Below are positions 1,730 to 20,794 of a stretch of DNA of 32,099 nt, in pieces. The DNA is from a bacterium (GTDB taxonomy: Bacteria; SZUA-79; Acidulodesulfobacterales; Acidulodesulfobacteraceae), in assembly GCA_021822625.1 (NCBI GenBank), contig JAKAQK010000008.1, positions 1 to 32,099 of the forward strand. Reading direction: 5' to 3'. Every line of letters begins with the position of its first letter. Positions within the stretch are counted from its first letter, which is position 1. The notes under the pieces were generated by a model. That model was not told the origin of the DNA, did no database searches, and saw only the letters and a list, made by a program, of their open reading frames with translations. A program made the translations under genes and the position numbers.

Positions 1730-2392
1730 TTATAAATTTATATCGCCTTTCTTGCTTGCAGCGTATTCAAGAACACCTTCAAGCAATGTAAATCTATCTA
1801 AACAAATTGTTTCCACAGGCATAGACTTTACAAAAAGCGCATTATTTACCAAACCGCCGGTCAAATAAATTTTAGCAGGTTTTCTTGCAAATCTGTACAT
1901 AGACATGCATACGCCTTTTATTAATCTTGCTGCTGCAATTCCAGGCTCGACGTTTGAAGCTACCATATCAAAAACGTGACCCATCCCTAAAAGTCCGCAA
2001 GTGGCAGTAATAAACTCTTTCTGAGGTTCTATAGTATTATAGTTTAAATTTAAATAACTTCCGAGAATCTCAATAGCCTGTCCGGTAAACGCCCCGCATT
2101 CGATATTCCAATCGCTGTGAATAAAATTACCGTCTTCAAAAATAACATATTTTGCATCCCTTGAACCGACGTCTAACAATGTAAATGATTTTTCTTTTAT
2201 TAATCTTTTGCCGGCATAAGAAAGCGCGATGATTTCATTCACGGACTGTCTTGCGAACCTGCTTATATTGTGCCCCGTCCCTATGTCCGCCTTAAATGTT
2301 TTTTCAAGATCTGCAACTTTTTTGACGGTCTTTTCATTAGTTTCGGTATTTAATATTTTTGCATATGTAGTTCCTGCGTCTAAAAGTATCAT
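1730..2392 (-). CDS. Compact BadF/BadG/HgdC-type ATPase (2-hydroxyacyl-CoA dehydratase activase-like)
   Basis: 220 aa ASKHA-like protein: MILLDAGTTYAKIL (phosphate 1), LLDVGSRDAKYV (cf. DIGGQDxK), NIECGAFTG (cf. KCAAGTG), ATCGLLGMGHVF (second Cys) and IYLTGGLVNN. Confidence 0.75.
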   Translation of the reverse strand: MILLDAGTTYAKILNTETNEKTVKKVADLEKTFKADIGTGHNISRFARQSVNEIIALSYAGKRLIKEKSFTLLDVGSRDAKYVIFEDGNFIHSDWNIECGAFTGQAIEILGSYLNLNYNTIEPQKEFITATCGLLGMGHVFDMVASNVEPGIAAARLIKGVCMSMYRFARKPAKIYLTGGLVNNALFVKSMPVETICLDRFTLLEGVLEYAASKKGDINL

Positions 2393-2478: not shown

Positions 2479-3408
2479 TTAAACGACAACCCCGTTAAGC
2501 TGTAAAAATGCGGTAAGTTTAGCCACCGTGCTTCGCGTAAGACCTAAATCCATATCTATAAAAATACCCCTGGGATGTTTGCTTGCAAGATAGGAAGCTA
2601 GTCCGGCTTTTGGACAAAAACTCTGCGCAAAAAAAACAGTGGGCACGTCGGGGTCAAATTCCAACTCAAGTTTTAAATCGCCCGGCGTTAAATTTTCGAC
2701 GCACCTCGTCCAGCCGTAAATATGCGTTTCATCCGGAAAATAGCTTGCTAATGAAAAATCTCCCCACGGAGGCGTTCCCCAAAATGCGCATTTTGGCTTG
2801 ACATATTCGGGTCTGAACGGTTTTTTCTTTTCAATATCCCTATAAAAATAACCTGCAATTTGTCCGAATTTATCATCTAAAGGGATACCGCTTTTGCAAA
2901 TAAAATCTCCTTTTCTTTCCAAGTCGTTATTTTTAACACGGGTCAATTTTATTTTCAATTCATTTTCGATAAAATCCGCAACAAATCCCATTTCATTACA
3001 TCTCGATATTTCTGAATCTTCAATTATTATTTCTGATATAGGATTTCTCCCTACAAGAACAGAATCAACGACATCTTCTGTCCAGTAATCCGTCGCAGCT
3101 AAAATATTTGCTATAATACGTTTAATTTGGGCGCAATATGCTTTCGGAAGAATATTTTCGGTAGGTTCCGTAATTAATTGGTCGACTTTGTACATATCCA
3201 AGGACAAGATAATTGCATTTTTTTTGATAAGGTCTTCCATAACCGATTTTGGAGGAATTCCGATAATTCCTATAAATGGTTTGTCTTTTGGATTTTGAAG
3301 AAACGATTTTTCTTTGCCCTTGACAAAACCATGCCTTGTCAAAACCATATCCTGCGAAGGATCATAATTGATATTTTTGGTTTCTTTTTTATCTTTATCA
3401 TCTTCCAT
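2479..3408 (-). CDS. Uncharacterised protein with 6 Cys, upstream of the mini-activase in the same orientation; possible partner of the activase
   Basis: 309 aa ORF with no family recognised by eye. It ends 86 bp upstream of the activase start on the same strand. Cys residues lie in AYCAQ, SRCNE, FICKSG, PKCAFWGTPPWG, TRCVEN and SFCPKAG. Confidence 0.7.
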   Translation of the reverse strand: MEDDKDKKETKNINYDPSQDMVLTRHGFVKGKEKSFLQNPKDKPFIGIIGIPPKSVMEDLIKKNAIILSLDMYKVDQLITEPTENILPKAYCAQIKRIIANILAATDYWTEDVVDSVLVGRNPISEIIIEDSEISRCNEMGFVADFIENELKIKLTRVKNNDLERKGDFICKSGIPLDDKFGQIAGYFYRDIEKKKPFRPEYVKPKCAFWGTPPWGDFSLASYFPDETHIYGWTRCVENLTPGDLKLELEFDPDVPTVFFAQSFCPKAGLASYLASKHPRGIFIDMDLGLTRSTVAKLTAFLQLNGVVV

Positions 3409-10274: not shown

Positions 10275-12131
10275 GTGGAAACCGGCAAGTTAAAAAGAAC
10301 GTTATCCGGAGAAATAAACGAAAGCTGCACAGATTCTGAATTTAACCTGAAAGGTTGGGTGATGCATTATAGAGACCACGGAGGGCTTATATTTATCGAC
10401 TTGCGTGATTATTCGGGCATTATTCAGATAGTTTTTGACGAGACGGTATCAAATAAATCGTTTAATACCGCAAAAAAGATTAAAAATGAATATGTTATTT
10501 CCGTTACCGGCAGGGTTAGAATACGTCCTGAAGGAACAGAAAATGAAAATTTAGAAACAGGTAAAATAGAAATTGAGGCTAAAGCTCTTGAAATCTTAAA
10601 CGAATGCGAAATTCTCCCGTTTCAGATAGAAGAAGAATCAGACACAAATGAACTGCTACGCCTGAAATACAGATACCTTGACCTTAGAAGAAAAAAAATG
10701 AAGGATAACTTAATATTCAGGTCTAAATTTAATTTTTTGACAAGAGAATTTTTAAATAAAAACGGTTTTTTTGATATAGAAACTCCATTTCTGACTAAAA
10801 GTACGCCGGAAGGTTCAAGGGATTTTCTTGTACCGTCAAGACTTAATAACGGAACTTTCTATGCCCTTCCCCAATCCCCTCAGTTATTTAAACAAATTTT
10901 AATGGTAAGCGGTTTCGAAAAATATTATCAAATAGTAAGATGCTTTAGGGATGAAGATTTAAGGGCGGACAGACAGCCGGAATTTACTCAGTTAGATATG
11001 GAGATGTCCTTCATTGAACAAAAAGATATTATGTCTCTTACTGAAGAAATGTTTGCGTTTATTTTCGACAAACTTCTAAATATTAAATTAGACCTGCCAA
11101 TAAAAATTATGGATTATGACGATGCAATGGAAATTTACGGCAGCGATAAACCGGATACAAGATTTGCAATGAAACTCAACACAGTTTCAGACATTTTTAA
11201 AAATTCTTCTCTGAATGTTTTTCAAGACTGTCTCTCAAAAAAAGGCGCTATAAAGGCTATATGTTTTAAAAACGGGGCAGACTTACTCTCCAGAAAAGAT
11301 ATCGACGAACTTTTAACGGTCGTTAAAGATTTTGGCGGAAAAGGTTTAGCATGGACAAAAGTCGCGTCGGATAAAGAAAAATTAAAATCAGACAAATCTT
11401 CCGATAATAACACCGAAAATATTTGTATTCATCAAAAATGCAAATTAGAAGGCGGAATAGCTAAATTTATCACGGAAGAGGAACAAGACATTCTGCTTGA
11501 CAGACTCGATGCGGAAAACGGCGATATTATCTTTTATCAGGCGGATTCAAAAAAAATTGCCGATATGGTTCTAGGCAGACTTAGACTCTATTTGGCAAAA
11601 AAATATAATCTTATCCCGGATGGCAAATTTAATTTTTTATGGGTTATTAATTTTCCACTTTTTGAATATTCTGAAGAGGAAAAGAAAATAGTTGCAATTC
11701 ATCATCCTTTTACAGCCCCAAACGTGGAAGATTTAGAGCTTCTTGATGCAAATCCGCTTATTGCAAAATCTCAGAGTTACGATCTGGTTTTAAACGGGGA
11801 AGAAATAGGCGGCGGAAGCATAAGAATACACAAACCGGAGCTGCAGGCGAAAATATTTGAAATTCTTTCAATCAAACAGGAAGATGCAAGATTAAAATTT
11901 GGTTTTCTCTTAGACGCTCTCAGCTTCGGCGCTCCTCCTCACGGCGGGATTGCTTTTGGGATAGACAGAGTGCTCATGCTTCTTAGAAACGAAGATTCTA
12001 TAAGGGACGTCATAGCATTTCCAAAAACTCAGAAAGCTCAGTGCCCCTTATCCGACGCTCCATCCGAAGTAAAATTTGAACAATTGCGCGAATTAGGAAT
12101 TAAAATAATAGAAAAAGATAAACATATATGA
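10275..12131 (+). CDS. aspS: Aspartate--tRNA ligase (GTG start)
   Basis: GWVMHYRDHGGLIFIDLRDYSGIIQIVF OB-fold, YRYLDLRR, FRDEDLRADRQPEFTQLDMEMSF (motif 2), GIAFGIDRVLMLL (motif 3); SD AAGGGG upstream. Confidence 0.96.
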   Translation: METGKLKRTLSGEINESCTDSEFNLKGWVMHYRDHGGLIFIDLRDYSGIIQIVFDETVSNKSFNTAKKIKNEYVISVTGRVRIRPEGTENENLETGKIEIEAKALEILNECEILPFQIEEESDTNELLRLKYRYLDLRRKKMKDNLIFRSKFNFLTREFLNKNGFFDIETPFLTKSTPEGSRDFLVPSRLNNGTFYALPQSPQLFKQILMVSGFEKYYQIVRCFRDEDLRADRQPEFTQLDMEMSFIEQKDIMSLTEEMFAFIFDKLLNIKLDLPIKIMDYDDAMEIYGSDKPDTRFAMKLNTVSDIFKNSSLNVFQDCLSKKGAIKAICFKNGADLLSRKDIDELLTVVKDFGGKGLAWTKVASDKEKLKSDKSSDNNTENICIHQKCKLEGGIAKFITEEEQDILLDRLDAENGDIIFYQADSKKIADMVLGRLRLYLAKKYNLIPDGKFNFLWVINFPLFEYSEEEKKIVAIHHPFTAPNVEDLELLDANPLIAKSQSYDLVLNGEEIGGGSIRIHKPELQAKIFEILSIKQEDARLKFGFLLDALSFGAPPHGGIAFGIDRVLMLLRNEDSIRDVIAFPKTQKAQCPLSDAPSEVKFEQLRELGIKIIEKDKHI

Positions 12132-12417: not shown

Positions 12418-13917
12418 TTGGATAAAACAAATTCTTTACCACACCCTTATTTTGTTTCTCATCCAAACTGGAAATGGTTTATCCTTACCACGGTTTTGAT
12501 AGGTGCTACTATGTCGGCGCTTGATGTCAGCATAGTAAATGTTGCCATGCCGACCATGGAACATGGTTTTAATGTTTCTATGGCGGTTATAGAGTGGGTT
12601 GCTATGGCTTATATGCTCACTCTTACAATATTCTTACCGCTTTTCGGCAGACTCGCCGATATGTTCGGCAGAACAAAGATGTATAATATAGGTTTCATTG
12701 TTTTTACAACCGGTTCTGCGCTATGCGGTTTTGCTCCTGATGCAAATTTTATTATAGCGTCTCGCGTTATTCAGGCCGTCGGTGCAGGAATGCTTCAGGC
12801 AAACTCCGTTGCTATAATAACTCAGGCGTTTCCTTCCAATGAATTAGGAAAAGCTATCGGTCTTCAGGGTGCTGTTCAGGCTATTGCGATGTCAATCGGA
12901 CCTTTTATCGGCGGTATGATTATAAGTGCAATCGGATGGAGATTTATATTTTACGTTAATGTTCCTATAGGAATAATAGGAACAATTGCAGCCATGTATA
13001 TTTTACCGGCAAGTAAGAAAAACGAGAAAAATGAAAAAATTGATTTTCTTGGAATTTCCATTTTTGCAGCGGGTCTTGCATTGCTGGTTCTGGCAGTTAA
13101 CCAGGGAAGCACATTCGGGTGGTCGTCACCAATAATAATCGGATTTTTTATTGCGGCTGCTATTTTGCTGCCGTTATTCGTATATATAGAATTAAAAGTG
13201 GAACATCCAATGATAGATTTAACACTATTTAAAAAATGGGCTTTTTCTGCAGGAAATATAACCGGAATGATGTCGTACTACGTCTTATTCGCCGTCTTGT
13301 TTCTAATGCCGTTTTATTTTGAAGATGTTTTAAAATATAATGCCGCTGCAACAGGTATTATGTTAACGCCTATCCCTCTTTCAATGGCTATTATAGCGCC
13401 TTTTGCCGGATCTATCTCTGATAAAATAGGTTCGAGAATAATGACGTCTCTTGGAATGTTTGTATGCACAATAGCAACTCTAAGTTTTGTTTTTATCGGA
13501 ACAAGCGCAAATATTATTCTACTGCTGATAGAATTTATAGTATTAGGTATCGGTATGGGGCTCTTCACGCCGCCTAACAACAGCAGTATAATGCATTCTG
13601 CTCCTCCGGAAAGGCTCGGCGTAGCAGGCGGGATACTGAACATGATGCGCGCTTTGGGACTAATATTCGGCGTAGCAATTTCAGGTCTTTTATTCACTTC
13701 TTTACAGAATAACTATTTAACAAATTATATGGCTTCTCATCATATAAATATATCGAAAGTTTCCGAACTGATAAAAAACAACGCGTTTGTTCACGGTATA
13801 GCATTTGTTATGTTTACATTAGTTGCAATTAATTTGGTTGCAACAATTTTATCTGCGGCAAAAAAAGATGTTAAAGGCGGTAAAATTGAAGGTGCCGAAC
13901 CTATAGACCTTATGTAA
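12418..13917 (+). CDS. DHA2-family (EmrB/QacA-type) MFS drug transporter (TTG start)
   Basis: 499 aa; ALDVSIVNVAMPTM, GRLADMFGRTKMY, NVPIGIIGTIAA; strong SD AGGAGG upstream of the TTG. Confidence 0.9.
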   Translation: MDKTNSLPHPYFVSHPNWKWFILTTVLIGATMSALDVSIVNVAMPTMEHGFNVSMAVIEWVAMAYMLTLTIFLPLFGRLADMFGRTKMYNIGFIVFTTGSALCGFAPDANFIIASRVIQAVGAGMLQANSVAIITQAFPSNELGKAIGLQGAVQAIAMSIGPFIGGMIISAIGWRFIFYVNVPIGIIGTIAAMYILPASKKNEKNEKIDFLGISIFAAGLALLVLAVNQGSTFGWSSPIIIGFFIAAAILLPLFVYIELKVEHPMIDLTLFKKWAFSAGNITGMMSYYVLFAVLFLMPFYFEDVLKYNAAATGIMLTPIPLSMAIIAPFAGSISDKIGSRIMTSLGMFVCTIATLSFVFIGTSANIILLLIEFIVLGIGMGLFTPPNNSSIMHSAPPERLGVAGGILNMMRALGLIFGVAISGLLFTSLQNNYLTNYMASHHINISKVSELIKNNAFVHGIAFVMFTLVAINLVATILSAAKKDVKGGKIEGAEPIDLM

Positions 13918-14040: not shown

Positions 14041-14079
14041 TTTGCGCAGATAAATAATTTAGTTAGTTATCTGCGCAAA
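14041..14079. repeat. Perfect 13-bp inverted repeat (hairpin or operator)
   Basis: TTTGCGCAGATAA (14041-14053), 13-nt loop, TTATCTGCGCAAA (14067-14079). No good U-tract on either strand. Confidence 0.85.
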
Positions 14080-14138: not shown

Positions 14139-15911
14139 ATGCAATTATTTAATAAAAATAATAAAAACGCCCTTTTGAATAAATTTGAAAAAAAAATAAC
14201 TCCCGGCATTGAAATAATTTTTCAAGGGGCTAAGAATAATGGCGTTAATAATCTTTTTTATGATGAGAATATTAATTATTTATTGCCTGAAATATTATCA
14301 GGCATGCCTGCCGTCAAAAAATACTCGAATATTAATTTACTATGGTTCAGCGTATTTGCTTTAAGCGTTGCGAGACAGAGAAGTTTAATCGTCTGCAATG
14401 CCGGTTCTTTTTTTAGTTTTTCGCAGCTTGAAGAGATTTTCTTAAAACAAAATCAATTTTATGGCGGCATAGTAATATGCCTGCTTAATAGAAGCGGCTA
14501 TAATAATTTTTCTACTGAAATTGAAAAAGAATTTCCTATTTTTAATTATTCTAAACTTGATGAATTTATTGATTTAATCCCCTCTAAATTTCAACTGTCT
14601 GAAAAATTAAAGCTTCCCGTGATAATTTATCTTAATAATTCTGTATTGTCTGAATATAAAATATGCGACGGGAATAAATTTGCAGAAAGGACTGAAGCAA
14701 AAACTATTCTTAAAGCAACCGACAATTTAGAACCCGGTAAAAATCAATTCATCTTGCCGGCTAACTATGAAGGTTTCAAAAATTACAATGATTCTATTGA
14801 AGTTATGCTGAATGAAAAATCAGACAATTTAATTTTATGCGACTCTAAGGCTTTTCCTCAGATAATAGAAAAATTTAACGAAGATAATATAATCTATTTC
14901 AAATTATTAAATCCGCCGGACGTGGAAAGACTTCAAGGCATATTCGATAATATTCCGGAGAAATTATTTAAACAGATTATAATTTATGATAGTTACAACC
15001 TATTATCAAAACCCTTATATTCTTTTTTTAAGAATAATAATAAAATTAAATTTAGTAAATTGACTTTAATAAATAATTCCGCTGATGAAAATACTGGCTG
15101 CTTTTATCTGGAAAATTTCACTCCGACGGATGTTCATATGAGTCCATCTTTTTGTATAGGGTGTAACCTTTTTGCCTTTTTACTGAAGATAAATAAAATT
15201 GACAACAAAGATACTATCTTGATAGGCGATACAAATTGTTTTTCGCTTATATCGTCAAGTCCTTTAAAATTTTCATTTCCCGATTTATTTTTGATAAAAG
15301 AACCTGTTTATTTTATTTTAAACTTGGATACTAAAAATTTAAACAAAAAAATCTATCTTTTTATCTCTTATTCTAATTTTTTGAACAATATTAACTTAAT
15401 TATTGATAAGATAAATAATCTTGCTCCTAAGGAAACAATTTATTTTGTTGTTTATGATTCAATTTTTGATTATAGCAACAATTCTATAAAAATTAATTAT
15501 GATTTGCCACAGATAAAAAATATTAAAACGGAAATACTAAAAAATAGCCTAACTCTTAATGATTTTAAAATAAAATATAAAACTAACCTTATTTTTATTG
15601 AAGATAGATGTATAGAAAAGTCTAACGGGACAAAGAATTATAACTTTTATAAATATTTAAAAATTAATAACGATATTTGTTTAAAATTTGAATGCAAACT
15701 ATGCTTCCAAATTAGCGGATGTCCGGCTATTAAAATAGAAGAAACAAATAATTTTGTTATTGACCCTGTTATATGCACGCATTGTAAATTATGTATTGCA
15801 ATATGTCCTCATAATGCAATAAAAATGCAAAAAAGAAGAAAAATAAAAATTAAAGAAAGCATTGAAAATAAAATCAATCTTAAAAAAATTAAAAAAAATA
15901 AAATTACTTAG
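14139..15911 (+). CDS. Divergent indolepyruvate:ferredoxin oxidoreductase alpha-like protein with C-terminal Fe-S motifs
   Basis: 590 aa; HMSPSFCIGCNLFAFLLKI (cf. PPxxCPGCPHR), LIGDTNCFSL (cf. GDIGCYTL), CKLCFQISGCPAIKIEE and CTHCKLCIAICPHNAIK. Confidence 0.72.
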   Translation: MQLFNKNNKNALLNKFEKKITPGIEIIFQGAKNNGVNNLFYDENINYLLPEILSGMPAVKKYSNINLLWFSVFALSVARQRSLIVCNAGSFFSFSQLEEIFLKQNQFYGGIVICLLNRSGYNNFSTEIEKEFPIFNYSKLDEFIDLIPSKFQLSEKLKLPVIIYLNNSVLSEYKICDGNKFAERTEAKTILKATDNLEPGKNQFILPANYEGFKNYNDSIEVMLNEKSDNLILCDSKAFPQIIEKFNEDNIIYFKLLNPPDVERLQGIFDNIPEKLFKQIIIYDSYNLLSKPLYSFFKNNNKIKFSKLTLINNSADENTGCFYLENFTPTDVHMSPSFCIGCNLFAFLLKINKIDNKDTILIGDTNCFSLISSSPLKFSFPDLFLIKEPVYFILNLDTKNLNKKIYLFISYSNFLNNINLIIDKINNLAPKETIYFVVYDSIFDYSNNSIKINYDLPQIKNIKTEILKNSLTLNDFKIKYKTNLIFIEDRCIEKSNGTKNYNFYKYLKINNDICLKFECKLCFQISGCPAIKIEETNNFVIDPVICTHCKLCIAICPHNAIKMQKRRKIKIKESIENKINLKKIKKNKIT

Positions 15912-16009
15912 TTTTACTTATATTTGTAAGACATTGTTAATTATTAAATGAAATTATAAATAAATTTTTTTTAAACTTAAGTTTATTTTACAAAGGATTA
16001 GCAAAATAG

Positions 16010-16600
16010 ATGGAAAACATAAATTTTAATTTTGTTATTAACGGAGCTGACATCGAAGAAATAAAACTTTTAAGTCAGATATTGTATTTATCATTATTAA
16101 ATGAGAATTACAGTACATCGATAGCCATAAAATCGTCGTCAAATATTTCTAATTACAATTTTTCTTTCAGCCTGATAAAAATTGGCAACACCCGCTCCGC
16201 CGTATGCGCAAAAAATATAAATGCATTAGTCAGCTTAGATTACCAGTCTGTAATGAACTATTTAGAATTTTTTGACGACAGCACGGTAATATTAGTTAAT
16301 TATTCTAAATTTAATATATGCAACTATTTTCTTTCGGACAATGACACTATTGACAACAATATAAAACAAAAAACGACTAATTTACTTAAAATTCCGGTAG
16401 AAAAAATTGCAAATATTGATTTGATGGGTAAAAATAAGGTAAGTCCAAATATCTCTTTGCTGGGTGCATTATCTGCTAAATCTGGAATAATTGATTTAAA
16501 TAATATTACGTCTGTTTTAGCTTCTATGGCTAAAAACGATGCTGAAAAAAAGAACTACATAAACACTTTAATTGCAGGTTACGATTTTGCCAATTCTTAA
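16010..16600 (+). CDS. Divergent IorB-like (POR/KOR gamma-domain-like) subunit
   Basis: 196 aa immediately downstream of the IorA-like gene; FSFSLIKIG (cf. ShiRiG) and NISLLGALSAKSGII...NTLIAGYDFA resemble IorB landmarks. Canonical GxGGQG is absent. Confidence 0.55.
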   Translation: MENINFNFVINGADIEEIKLLSQILYLSLLNENYSTSIAIKSSSNISNYNFSFSLIKIGNTRSAVCAKNINALVSLDYQSVMNYLEFFDDSTVILVNYSKFNICNYFLSDNDTIDNNIKQKTTNLLKIPVEKIANIDLMGKNKVSPNISLLGALSAKSGIIDLNNITSVLASMAKNDAEKKNYINTLIAGYDFANS

Positions 16601-17369: not shown

Positions 17370-20363
17370 TTATATGAAGCATTTATTGTTTTTATTTAAG
17401 CTGTCGTAAAAAGCTTCAAGTCTGGTAACATACCCTGCGTCTGCATTATGTTCGTCTATTTCAATTTCTAAATAAGGTTTATCTTTCATATAATCGGCAA
17501 AAAAAGTTTTGATAAACGAGTCTGGGCCGCAGCTGTAGCTGGTTAAATATACCGCATTTAGTTTAGGATTGTCTTTTATTATCTTCGCTGCCGACAATAT
17601 TTTATGTCCGGCGTGCCAAAACATATTATCGTGTTCCGAAAATATAGATACTTCATTATAATCAAGAAAATCCATCGGCATCACGGTCATGCCTAATGAC
17701 GTAATCTTATCGGGGATTGCAAGATTAATTCCATCATCCCCCGTATTATAAGGTCTGCCGATCAAAACTGTTACATCGTCGTATTTCTCAAGAATCTCCC
17801 TGCCTTTATTTTTAAGTGCATTGAAAAAATCAGCCTGTTTAGCTAATGCGTTATCTAATGCCTTAACAATTTTTTTCTTTGAAGTTTTAAACTTTTTTAA
17901 ATAATATGTTAAACTGCTAATGGTTATGTCTATATCCTGCTTATTATTATTTAGTCTAATTTCCGGCGTGATAAGATATATCCCGTTAAAATCGACAAGC
18001 GATTTAGTCGAAAAAGGAACGCCTTGTATATAAGGACACTGCGCTGTGTTAGTTTGGAGTATATGATTTTTTTCTCTGTTTATCAACGCAGGCAGAAATA
18101 TTGCATTCACCTTCTTGTCGATAAGATTTTTTGAGTGTCCCAGAAGTACTTTAACCGGAAGACACGTATCCGTTATAGACAGCATATTTGAACTGCTTAT
18201 TATAGATTTATTTGTTTCATCGGATAGCACTACAGTAAAACCGAGTTCCGTAAATAAGCTGTTGTAAAGCGGAAACAGGTCATATGTTTCCAAGCATAAA
18301 GGTATACCTATGCGCGGCTTAGAGAAATCATTTTCGTTTTTTTGCTTATCATATTTCTCAAATAATAAATTTTTTCTCTCAATAAAAAAATTATTGCCTT
18401 TTTTAATCTTATTTTTCTCTATTTCAAATATATCGCACCTTGCCCCATAATAATGCGGCGGTTCTTTCTCAACAGAAACTTTATTAACCTCGCATAGATT
18501 CGGACATTTTTTGCATTCAAAAGATTCTTGTTCATATTTTCTGTTTCTTAAATCAAATCCTACAAATTTTGATTTTCCCTCCGTTCTGTAAGACAGTAAT
18601 GCACTCCCTATAGCTCCCGTCACTTCATTGTGTTTCGGCACAATAATCTTTTTATTTAACAAAGTTTCAAAAGCGCTGACTACCGCCTTATTTAATGCAA
18701 CTCCGCCTTGAAAGAGTATATGTTCTCCTACCGGCTTCCCCAACACTACTTTATTTAAGTAGTTTTCAACAATAGAGTAGCTTAGTCCTGCCAGAAGCTG
18801 GTCCTTTGAAGCCCCTTTTTGCTGATGCGATACAAGATCGGATTCCATAAAAACAGTGCATCTTTCTCCAAGGCTGCATGGGCTTTCGGCCCTAAACGCC
18901 GATTCGGAAAATTCTTTTATTATATCGATATGCAATTTATCGGCCTGTTCCTCAAGAAAGGAACCCGTCCCTGCGGCGCATGCCTTATTCATTTCAAAAT
19001 CTATTACTACGCCGTTATTAATTCTTATATATTTTGAATCTTGTCCGCCTATTTCAAAAACTGTATCAACTTTATCATCTATAAATACCGATGCTTCCGC
19101 CTGTGCAGTTATTTCATTTTTAACGACATCGGCGCCTATAAAATCGGCAATTAAATATCTTCCCGAGCCGGTTGTGCATACTCCTTTGACTTCTGGAATT
19201 ATATGATAAGCGGTAAGTTCGCAATAAATTTCAAATAATGTTTCCATTACGACTTTAATAGGCTCACCGTTCGTTTTTTTATATTTTTTAATTATAAGCT
19301 CTTTATTGTCATCCAATAATACTATATTAGTAGAGACGGAACCTGTATCTACGCCTATATATACAGGGACTGTCAGTTTAGCATATTTAGTTAAATTTCT
19401 GTTTTGATCAAAACTACAATTAGATTCTTCTTCTATCGGCAGTTTATTAAGATTAGGATGGGATTTTCCGGTTAATCTGCTCTCGGTTAGAAATTTTTCT
19501 AATTTATCTAATCCGTCAAATTTAAAACAATTATTGCCGTCTTTTTCGACTTCATTTTTTGAGATTAGAGCAATTCCTATTGCCGCCATTACGGTATGAT
19601 GTTCCGGAATAATCAATTCTCCGCTCTTTAAACCTAATACGTCTTCAAACGCACGTATCATACCCTTATTGTATGCAACCCCGCCTTGGAAAATTACCGG
19701 TTTTTTTATTTTTTTGCCTTTAGCAACAACACCCATAAAATTTCGCGCAACGGCATAGCATAAACCTGCGACTATATCCTGTATAGGGGTAGAAATTTGC
19801 TGCAAATGAATCATATCTGATTTAGCAAATACCGTACATCTACCGGCTATTTTTGCGGGATTTTCTGATGAAACGGCCAATCTGCCAAAATCTTTTTCTA
19901 TATCTATATTAAGTCTGTCAGCCTGCTGGTCTAAAAATGAGCCTGTGCCGGCGGCGCATAAATCATTTAATCCAAAATCATCTAAGTAAATATCACCGGT
20001 TTTTTCATTTTTATTTAATAATATAAATTTTGAATCCTGCCCGCCCATTTCTATTACTGTTTTTACATCTGGATAAAAATATTTAACGGCTTCAGTCTGT
20101 GCAACAAGTTCGTTTATATTGGGTATATTTAATATATCGCCGAGAGTTTTAGAACCGGAACCTGTAACCCCCATTGAATAAAAATTTTCAACGGGAAATT
20201 CGCTAAAAGTATCTTTTAAAACATTATAGGCTGTTTTAAGGGATTCTCCGTTTGACCTTGTATATGTTTTGGCAACTACATTTAATTTTTCATCTAATAT
20301 CGCAGTTTTAACAGTCGTTGAACCTATATCTATACCTAAAAAAAGCTTATTCGTTTTATTCAT
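17370..20363 (-). CDS. Long acyl-CoA dehydratase activase: two BadF/HgdC ATPase domains plus DUF2229/HgdB-like C-terminus
   Basis: LGIDIGSTTVKTAILD...MGGQDSKFI...LCAAGTGSFLDQQADRL...GRCTVFAKSD, then the second copy IGVDTGSVSTNIVLL...IGGQDSKYI...KACAAGTGSFLEEQADKL...GERCTVFMESD. C-terminal IGIPLCLETYDLFPLY and IGRPYNTGDDGINL. Start set at the internal Met (MNKTNK), just after the moaE stop. Confidence 0.9.
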   Translation of the reverse strand: MNKTNKLFLGIDIGSTTVKTAILDEKLNVVAKTYTRSNGESLKTAYNVLKDTFSEFPVENFYSMGVTGSGSKTLGDILNIPNINELVAQTEAVKYFYPDVKTVIEMGGQDSKFILLNKNEKTGDIYLDDFGLNDLCAAGTGSFLDQQADRLNIDIEKDFGRLAVSSENPAKIAGRCTVFAKSDMIHLQQISTPIQDIVAGLCYAVARNFMGVVAKGKKIKKPVIFQGGVAYNKGMIRAFEDVLGLKSGELIIPEHHTVMAAIGIALISKNEVEKDGNNCFKFDGLDKLEKFLTESRLTGKSHPNLNKLPIEEESNCSFDQNRNLTKYAKLTVPVYIGVDTGSVSTNIVLLDDNKELIIKKYKKTNGEPIKVVMETLFEIYCELTAYHIIPEVKGVCTTGSGRYLIADFIGADVVKNEITAQAEASVFIDDKVDTVFEIGGQDSKYIRINNGVVIDFEMNKACAAGTGSFLEEQADKLHIDIIKEFSESAFRAESPCSLGERCTVFMESDLVSHQQKGASKDQLLAGLSYSIVENYLNKVVLGKPVGEHILFQGGVALNKAVVSAFETLLNKKIIVPKHNEVTGAIGSALLSYRTEGKSKFVGFDLRNRKYEQESFECKKCPNLCEVNKVSVEKEPPHYYGARCDIFEIEKNKIKKGNNFFIERKNLLFEKYDKQKNENDFSKPRIGIPLCLETYDLFPLYNSLFTELGFTVVLSDETNKSIISSSNMLSITDTCLPVKVLLGHSKNLIDKKVNAIFLPALINREKNHILQTNTAQCPYIQGVPFSTKSLVDFNGIYLITPEIRLNNNKQDIDITISSLTYYLKKFKTSKKKIVKALDNALAKQADFFNALKNKGREILEKYDDVTVLIGRPYNTGDDGINLAIPDKITSLGMTVMPMDFLDYNEVSIFSEHDNMFWHAGHKILSAAKIIKDNPKLNAVYLTSYSCGPDSFIKTFFADYMKDKPYLEIEIDEHNADAGYVTRLEAFYDSLNKNNKCFI

Positions 20364-20365
20364 AG

Positions 20366-20794
20366 TTAAATCCTTTTCCATTTTTCATATTCGCCGAAGG
20401 ATTCTTTTTTCCATATAGGCACTGTTTCTTTTATATTGTCTATCAAAAATTTTGAAGCCGTATATGAAGAATCTCTGTGGGGGCTGGAAACTGCAATGGA
20501 AATTGAAATTTCGCCTATTTCTATCTTCCCCGTTCTATGAATAACGGCAATCTTATTTAAATCATATTTTTCAAAAGCGGCTCTTATAAGTTTATCTATT
20601 TCTTTAATAGCCATTTCTTCATATGCTTCATAATAAAGAAACTTAACGGGCGTTCCGTCCTCATTGTCTCTAACGGTTCCATTAAACAAAAGCGTTGAAC
20701 CTGAAGCTGCATCATTCACAAAATTCAGAGCTATATTTACATCAATGGGTATTTTAACTATATCTATATAATAAAAATTATTATCGATAGCCAT
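20366..20794 (-). CDS. moaE: Molybdopterin synthase catalytic subunit
   Basis: LLFNGTVRDNEDGTPVKFLYYEAYEEMA, HRTGKIEIGEISISIAVSSPHR and PIWKKE. Confidence 0.93.
   Translation of the reverse strand: MAIDNNFYYIDIVKIPIDVNIALNFVNDAASGSTLLFNGTVRDNEDGTPVKFLYYEAYEEMAIKEIDKLIRAAFEKYDLNKIAVIHRTGKIEIGEISISIAVSSPHRDSSYTASKFLIDNIKETVPIWKKESFGEYEKWKRI

Follow-up and report, generated by a model that had tools for sequence, protein, structure and literature searches.

Two adjacent genes of the window (the whole stretch of 32,099 nucleotides that was analysed, contig C8 of a 2.31-Mb, 237-contig MAG), here called A and B, are best read as a lineage-specific, catalytically retired IorAB complex that works as a three-cluster electron relay or redox adaptor, an interpretation to which we give a probability of roughly 0.55. 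Its observed basis, as judged by sequence comparison, is a two-subunit chassis derived from IorA and IorB that is vertically inherited and under purifying selection, and from which the catalytic motifs are gone while the cluster cysteines are kept. A first-pass annotation of this DNA had proposed a repurposed, possibly non-catalytic complex serving in electron transfer or as a scaffold; the evidence below fits that proposal, with all 12 cluster cysteines selectively retained, though the function itself is inferred.

Profile comparisons, made with a canonical reference set of 25 IorA and 31 IorB sequences from relatives, confirm A and B as distant homologues of IorA and IorB. Aligned by hhalign, the 25-member A family matches the 25 canonical IorA sequences with an E-value of 3.8e-11 over 507 columns; after removal of the ferredoxin domain A, in register over residues 12-162, still scores 44.1, where 40 column shuffles reach at most 21.5, and B scores 60.9 against canonical IorB (shuffled maximum 21.1). 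The old TPP (PP) domain of A, taken alone, scores 39.2 as against 22.6 in shuffles, but no more than the first 35 columns (CxGC to GDxxC) can be aligned, and the TPP-binding half of the domain is unrecognisable. In A the only Pfam domains are of the ferredoxin type, and B passes the POR domain PF01558 at 35.6 bits (gathering cut-off 27.4). Against the NCBIfam IorA model TIGR03336, A reaches 54 bits, its best stretch being C-terminal, and thus falls short of the cut-off of 650.9, although this is a weak test by itself because the canonical IorA of the same genome, at 581 bits, likewise lies below it. Profile searches of the PDB with A minus its ferredoxin domain, or with B, gave no match, and AlphaFold2 models of A and B built from five genus-level sequences (mean pLDDT 38 for both) were not used for any conclusion.

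Table 1. Positions in the window of A, B, their diagnostic sites and neighbouring genes.
Feature	Position	Strand	Conservation or basis
aspS, upstream in the same conserved gene row as A-B	10275..12131	+	Named from sequence, without family search
EmrB-type (DHA2) MFS permease, upstream operon neighbour of A	12418..13917	+	TIGR00711 above cut-off
ORF A, IorA-like 590-aa protein without recognisable TPP site	14139..15911	+	Open, complete; hhalign and homologues
Site of IorA YPGTP substrate loop, here FYDEN (residues 40-44, F40-N44)	14256..14270	+	0/25 retain any of Y, P, G, T, P
CIGC, C339 and C342, proximal [4Fe-4S] ligands (StOFOR2 Cys12/Cys15)	15153..15164	+	Invariant 25/25; canonical IorA aligned to 5b48_B
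C367 of GDTNC, third proximal-cluster ligand	15237..15239	+	25/25; IorA GDIGC, aligned to GIGC Cys of 5b48_B
Site of TPP/Mg GDS motif, here ISY (residues 409-411)	15363..15371	+	Canonical G462>I409, D463>S410
C491 (FIEDRC), fourth proximal-cluster ligand (IorA REC)	15609..15611	+	25/25
C-terminal ferredoxin domain, C514/519/522/528 and C546/549/552/556, two [4Fe-4S] clusters	15678..15806	+	Cys 25/25; Fer4 matches 25/25
ORF B, IorB-like 196-aa protein (POR gamma-type domain)	16010..16600	+	Open, complete; Pfam PF01558
Site of IorB GxGGQG, here GADIEE (from G12)	16043..16060	+	0/25 B vs 31/31 canonical IorB
Site of IorB QRGG, here NISN (N45-N48; invariant SNISN)	16142..16153	+	0/25 B vs 30/31 canonical IorB
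C66 of B	16205..16207	+	Invariant in 25/25 B; canonical IorB without conserved Cys
C104 of B	16319..16321	+	Invariant in 25/25 B; canonical IorB without conserved Cys
1003-aa activase (BadF/BcrA-type)	17370-20381	-	Two BadF/BadG/BcrA/BcrD ATPase domains and DUF2229

In StOFOR the Mg ligands come from a Gly-Asp-Gly motif and an Asn, a Glu serves to activate TPP, and a YPITP loop is essential (PMC5020499); the canonical IorA of the window's genome aligns with the StOFOR2 beta subunit (5b48_B) with CxGC, GC and GD all in register. The GD of the TPP/Mg motif is present in 25/25 canonical IorA sequences as against 0/25 A proteins, and the conserved Glu of the NEK segment (E67 in the IorA sequence L007), which we infer to be the equivalent of StOFOR Glu294, aligns to I65 of A, where Glu occurs in 0/25. 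At the Asn of the LDN motif the hhalign result is a gap, with alignment to N448 (Asn in 21/25 A proteins), in a stretch that is not reliably alignable. The Pfam family TPP_enzyme_C matches none of the 25 A proteins, whereas the genome's own canonical IorA matches at 4e-23. The earlier annotation had located the lost motifs by hand: its YPGTP, GDS, GxGGQG and QRGG positions agree with hhalign and the absence of GxGGQG and hGmxqRGG extends to all 25 B proteins, but the LDN Asn, which it placed at VYDS, is set by hhalign, with the uncertainty just mentioned, at N448. A profile alignment of the TPP-motif columns, one of the checks it advised, likewise places no intact GD(S/G) motif in any of the 25.

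The cysteines present the opposite picture. Of the 13 that are invariant in canonical IorA, each of the 25 A proteins retains 12, the one lost being the equivalent of L007 C437, and those kept are exactly the four proximal-cluster and eight ferredoxin positions; among the other aligned invariant IorA residues only 21/133 reach a retention of 90% or more across A proteins (Fisher one-sided p 3e-8, a value that is merely indicative because the sequences compared are related). The CxGC motif is known to ligate the proximal cluster (PMC5020499). The role of C491 is assigned from its alignment with the IorA REC cysteine, which lies six residues beyond the end of the 5b48_B match and which, if no gap intervenes, would correspond to residue 197 of 5b48_B, inside the 194-210 loop that in StOFOR2 is placed around the proximal cluster (PMC5020499). 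The CIGC, GDTNC and two ferredoxin motifs listed as landmarks in the first-pass annotation are thus real, whilst this fourth proximal ligand had been missed. For the two invariant cysteines of B a disulphide, a metal site or a redox switch were considered as possible roles.

Within a phylum sample of 30 genomes, all of one family, A was found in 25, spanning six genera at 36-90% identity, and B (45-92% identity) lies directly downstream in 25/25. Values of dN/dS (Nei-Gojobori) are 0.105-0.171 for A and 0.04-0.10 for B, those for canonical IorA between the same genomes being 0.05-0.08. The five genomes without A-B also have neither the activase nor GroEL, and in three of them aspS is missing while in the remaining two the contig breaks off soon after aspS; since neighbouring essential genes are missing too, or the contig ends there, we take these absences to be assembly gaps and not losses. 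On the same grounds, groEL being absent and aspS missing or at a contig end, the joint absence of A-B and the activase was rejected as a sign of a functional link. In the assemblies of two genomes, G002 and G009, the block seems to be missing or masked, for none of aspS, the activase and GroEL has a match there despite completeness ratings of 97% or more. A further genome, G024, carries two copies of A (on C130 and C159), the B match of the second covering only 84 residues; this second copy may be contamination (3%) or a genuine second copy. Profiles of A minus ferredoxin and of B were run against 386 sampled genomes, of which approximately 356 lie outside the phylum, and recovered no additional member; two weak B-profile matches in that sample are short and partial. 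Restriction of A-B to its phylum is likely but, because this sample is small in comparison with GTDB, not proven.

Contigs C147 and C177 of the window's own genome carry two canonical IorAB pairs with GDSTFYHSG/GDSTFFHSG and GxGGQG preserved, so that the 2-oxoacid job is covered elsewhere in the genome. The further checks advised at the outset, namely a search for canonical iorAB, dN/dS across related genomes (about 0.1, constrained) and joint conservation of the pair, have all returned positive answers, and the description of A and B as long, uninterrupted and adjacent is borne out, both being full length.

The order of genes around A-B (alpha/beta hydrolase, aspS, EmrB-type MFS, A, B, Fur, 1003-aa activase, MoaE, MogA, GroEL) is essentially unchanged in the 12 relatives' loci that were read. 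Spacing between A and B ranges from -14 to 126 bp over 13 loci measured and from -14 to 42 bp outside the window's genus, where the MFS gene, if present, precedes A by 1-33 bp; because both gaps are short, joint transcription of A-B and the genes upstream is suggested outside that genus. In genome G007 (locus L096) the flanking MFS and Fur genes have been lost or replaced and A-B retained, indicating that the pair is independent of both. The 1003-aa protein, found in the same place in 12/12 of these loci, is of the acyl-CoA dehydratase activase type and possibly an ATP-dependent electron-transfer protein; activases of this class (BadF/BcrA-type) usually require a low-potential electron donor. 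Elsewhere in the window a degenerate BcrAD/BadFG-like protein of 220 residues (1730-2392, minus strand; Pfam E 0.007) adjoins a 309-residue protein (2479-3408, minus strand) that has no match in Pfam, and a DsrE-like gene (1275-1652) lies beside this pair. Between the MFS gene and A is a perfect 13-bp inverted repeat, TTTGCGCAGATAA...TTATCTGCGCAAA (14041-14079), unique in the genome; it was rejected as a regulatory site as it is not conserved, with a recognisable variant in G003 and none in L015 and L018.

In PFOR electrons travel from TPP to the protein surface by way of three clusters (PMC5020499). A-B, related to a thiamine-dependent keto-acid enzyme, are probably an old enzyme put to new use as a wire for electrons or a redox device. 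In such a device B would still bind A, an association suggested by adjacency and co-conservation alone, and the three clusters of A would be occupied, with electrons passing from proximal to medial to distal as in intact 2-oxoacid:ferredoxin oxidoreductases. At one end a ferredoxin-like partner would meet the C-terminal domain of A, and at the other a second redox partner would dock at the former TPP pocket, making A-B an electron relay or redox adaptor and not a 2-oxoacid oxidoreductase. Two observations count against this reading: a pure relay does not account for the invariant C66 and C104 of B, and the alignable part of the former TPP domain stops after 35 columns, which leaves room for an unrelated new active site.

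A more specific version, which we put forward only tentatively and hold to be rather doubtful as it stands, is a phylum-specific electron-transfer complex in which the catalytic site of a 2-oxoacid:ferredoxin oxidoreductase was stripped and the three-cluster wire kept, now feeding or draining a dedicated low-potential partner such as the adjacent ATPase-type activase, nitrogenase or sulfite reduction. The activase is a candidate partner solely by being next door, and this is weak evidence because the whole block is syntenic and the activase lies on the other strand. The uncultured acid-mine bacteria of Candidatus Acidulodesulfobacterales are predicted to be capable of nitrogen and CO2 fixation as well as sulfate reduction (PMC6776010).

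The strongest rival, unlikely in our estimation, is a neofunctionalised enzyme in which the TPP pocket was rebuilt as a different active site, for another cofactor or substrate, with which the clusters still exchange electrons. The region from C367 to C491 stays at about 120 residues and has invariant residues of its own (S374, L376, F380, P389 and Y439), and B, with its SNISN motif and two cysteines, is more conserved than A, all of which would suit a new site; against it, Pfam and NCBIfam yield no cofactor domain besides the ferredoxin-type and POR domains, and the profile lacking ferredoxin finds no counterpart in the PDB. We consider it distinctly improbable that A and B are regulatory or structural pseudo-subunits, joining canonical IorAB or acting as a redox sensor or scaffold with clusters kept for stability or sensing. 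The presence of two canonical pairs in the genome is compatible with such a role, as is the organisation of known OFORs as dimers of heterodimers with neighbouring active sites (PMC5020499). However, twelve strictly kept ligands at three wire-like positions fit electron flow better, and canonical IorA matches vary from one per genome (G007, G008, G010) to two or more whilst A-B is always a single pair, so that there is no matching dosage.

That A-B remains a TPP-dependent 2-oxoacid oxidoreductase with unorthodox motifs is very improbable: the architecture is kept (PYR, proximal cluster, ferredoxin and a separate gamma subunit) and N448 lies near the old LDN site, but GD, YPGTP, the Glu67 equivalent, GxGGQG and QRGG are each found in 0/25, and the new 2-oxoacid oxidoreductase subfamily entertained in the first-pass annotation is accordingly not supported. 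Decay to a pseudogene or an assembly artefact, for which the low similarity to IorA and the origin of the window in a MAG contig might speak and which the same annotation already thought a poor explanation, is refuted by reading frames open in 25 genomes at the same locus, by dN/dS of about 0.1, by synteny and presence in 25/25 assembled loci, and by the probable assembly gaps in the five remaining genomes.

OFORs are known as TPP enzymes, and A-B is a clade-wide, strongly selected OFOR pair without a recognisable TPP site in which all cluster ligands of the electron path are kept. Should the relay reading be true, the electron wire would be separable from catalysis and retained for its own sake, and in any case POR and Fer4 domains are insufficient grounds for labelling A-B a 2-oxoacid oxidoreductase. 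A literature search, with most subscription journals outside its coverage, returned no description of a TPP-less Ior or OFOR. The nearest known system is IorAB itself (IorA of TIGR03336 with a POR-domain IorB), which shares with A-B the split and order of subunits (PYR, proximal-cluster domain and ferredoxin in A, gamma in B), an alpha gene followed directly by the gamma gene, and the 12 Fe-S ligand cysteines, but differs in possessing the TPP/Mg GD, the YPGTP loop, the Glu, GxGGQG and QRGG. PFOR, OGOR and StOFOR2 have the same CxGC...GC...C proximal cluster, and A-B the same three-cluster chain as PFOR, although these enzymes keep GDG...N and bind TPP-Mg (PMC5020499). If A-B is indeed a relay, its working would be similar to that of RnfB, the ferredoxin insert of HdrA and FwdF, to which the A ferredoxin domain has weak matches; unlike these, A-B retains the IorA PYR and proximal-cluster domains and the IorB partner.
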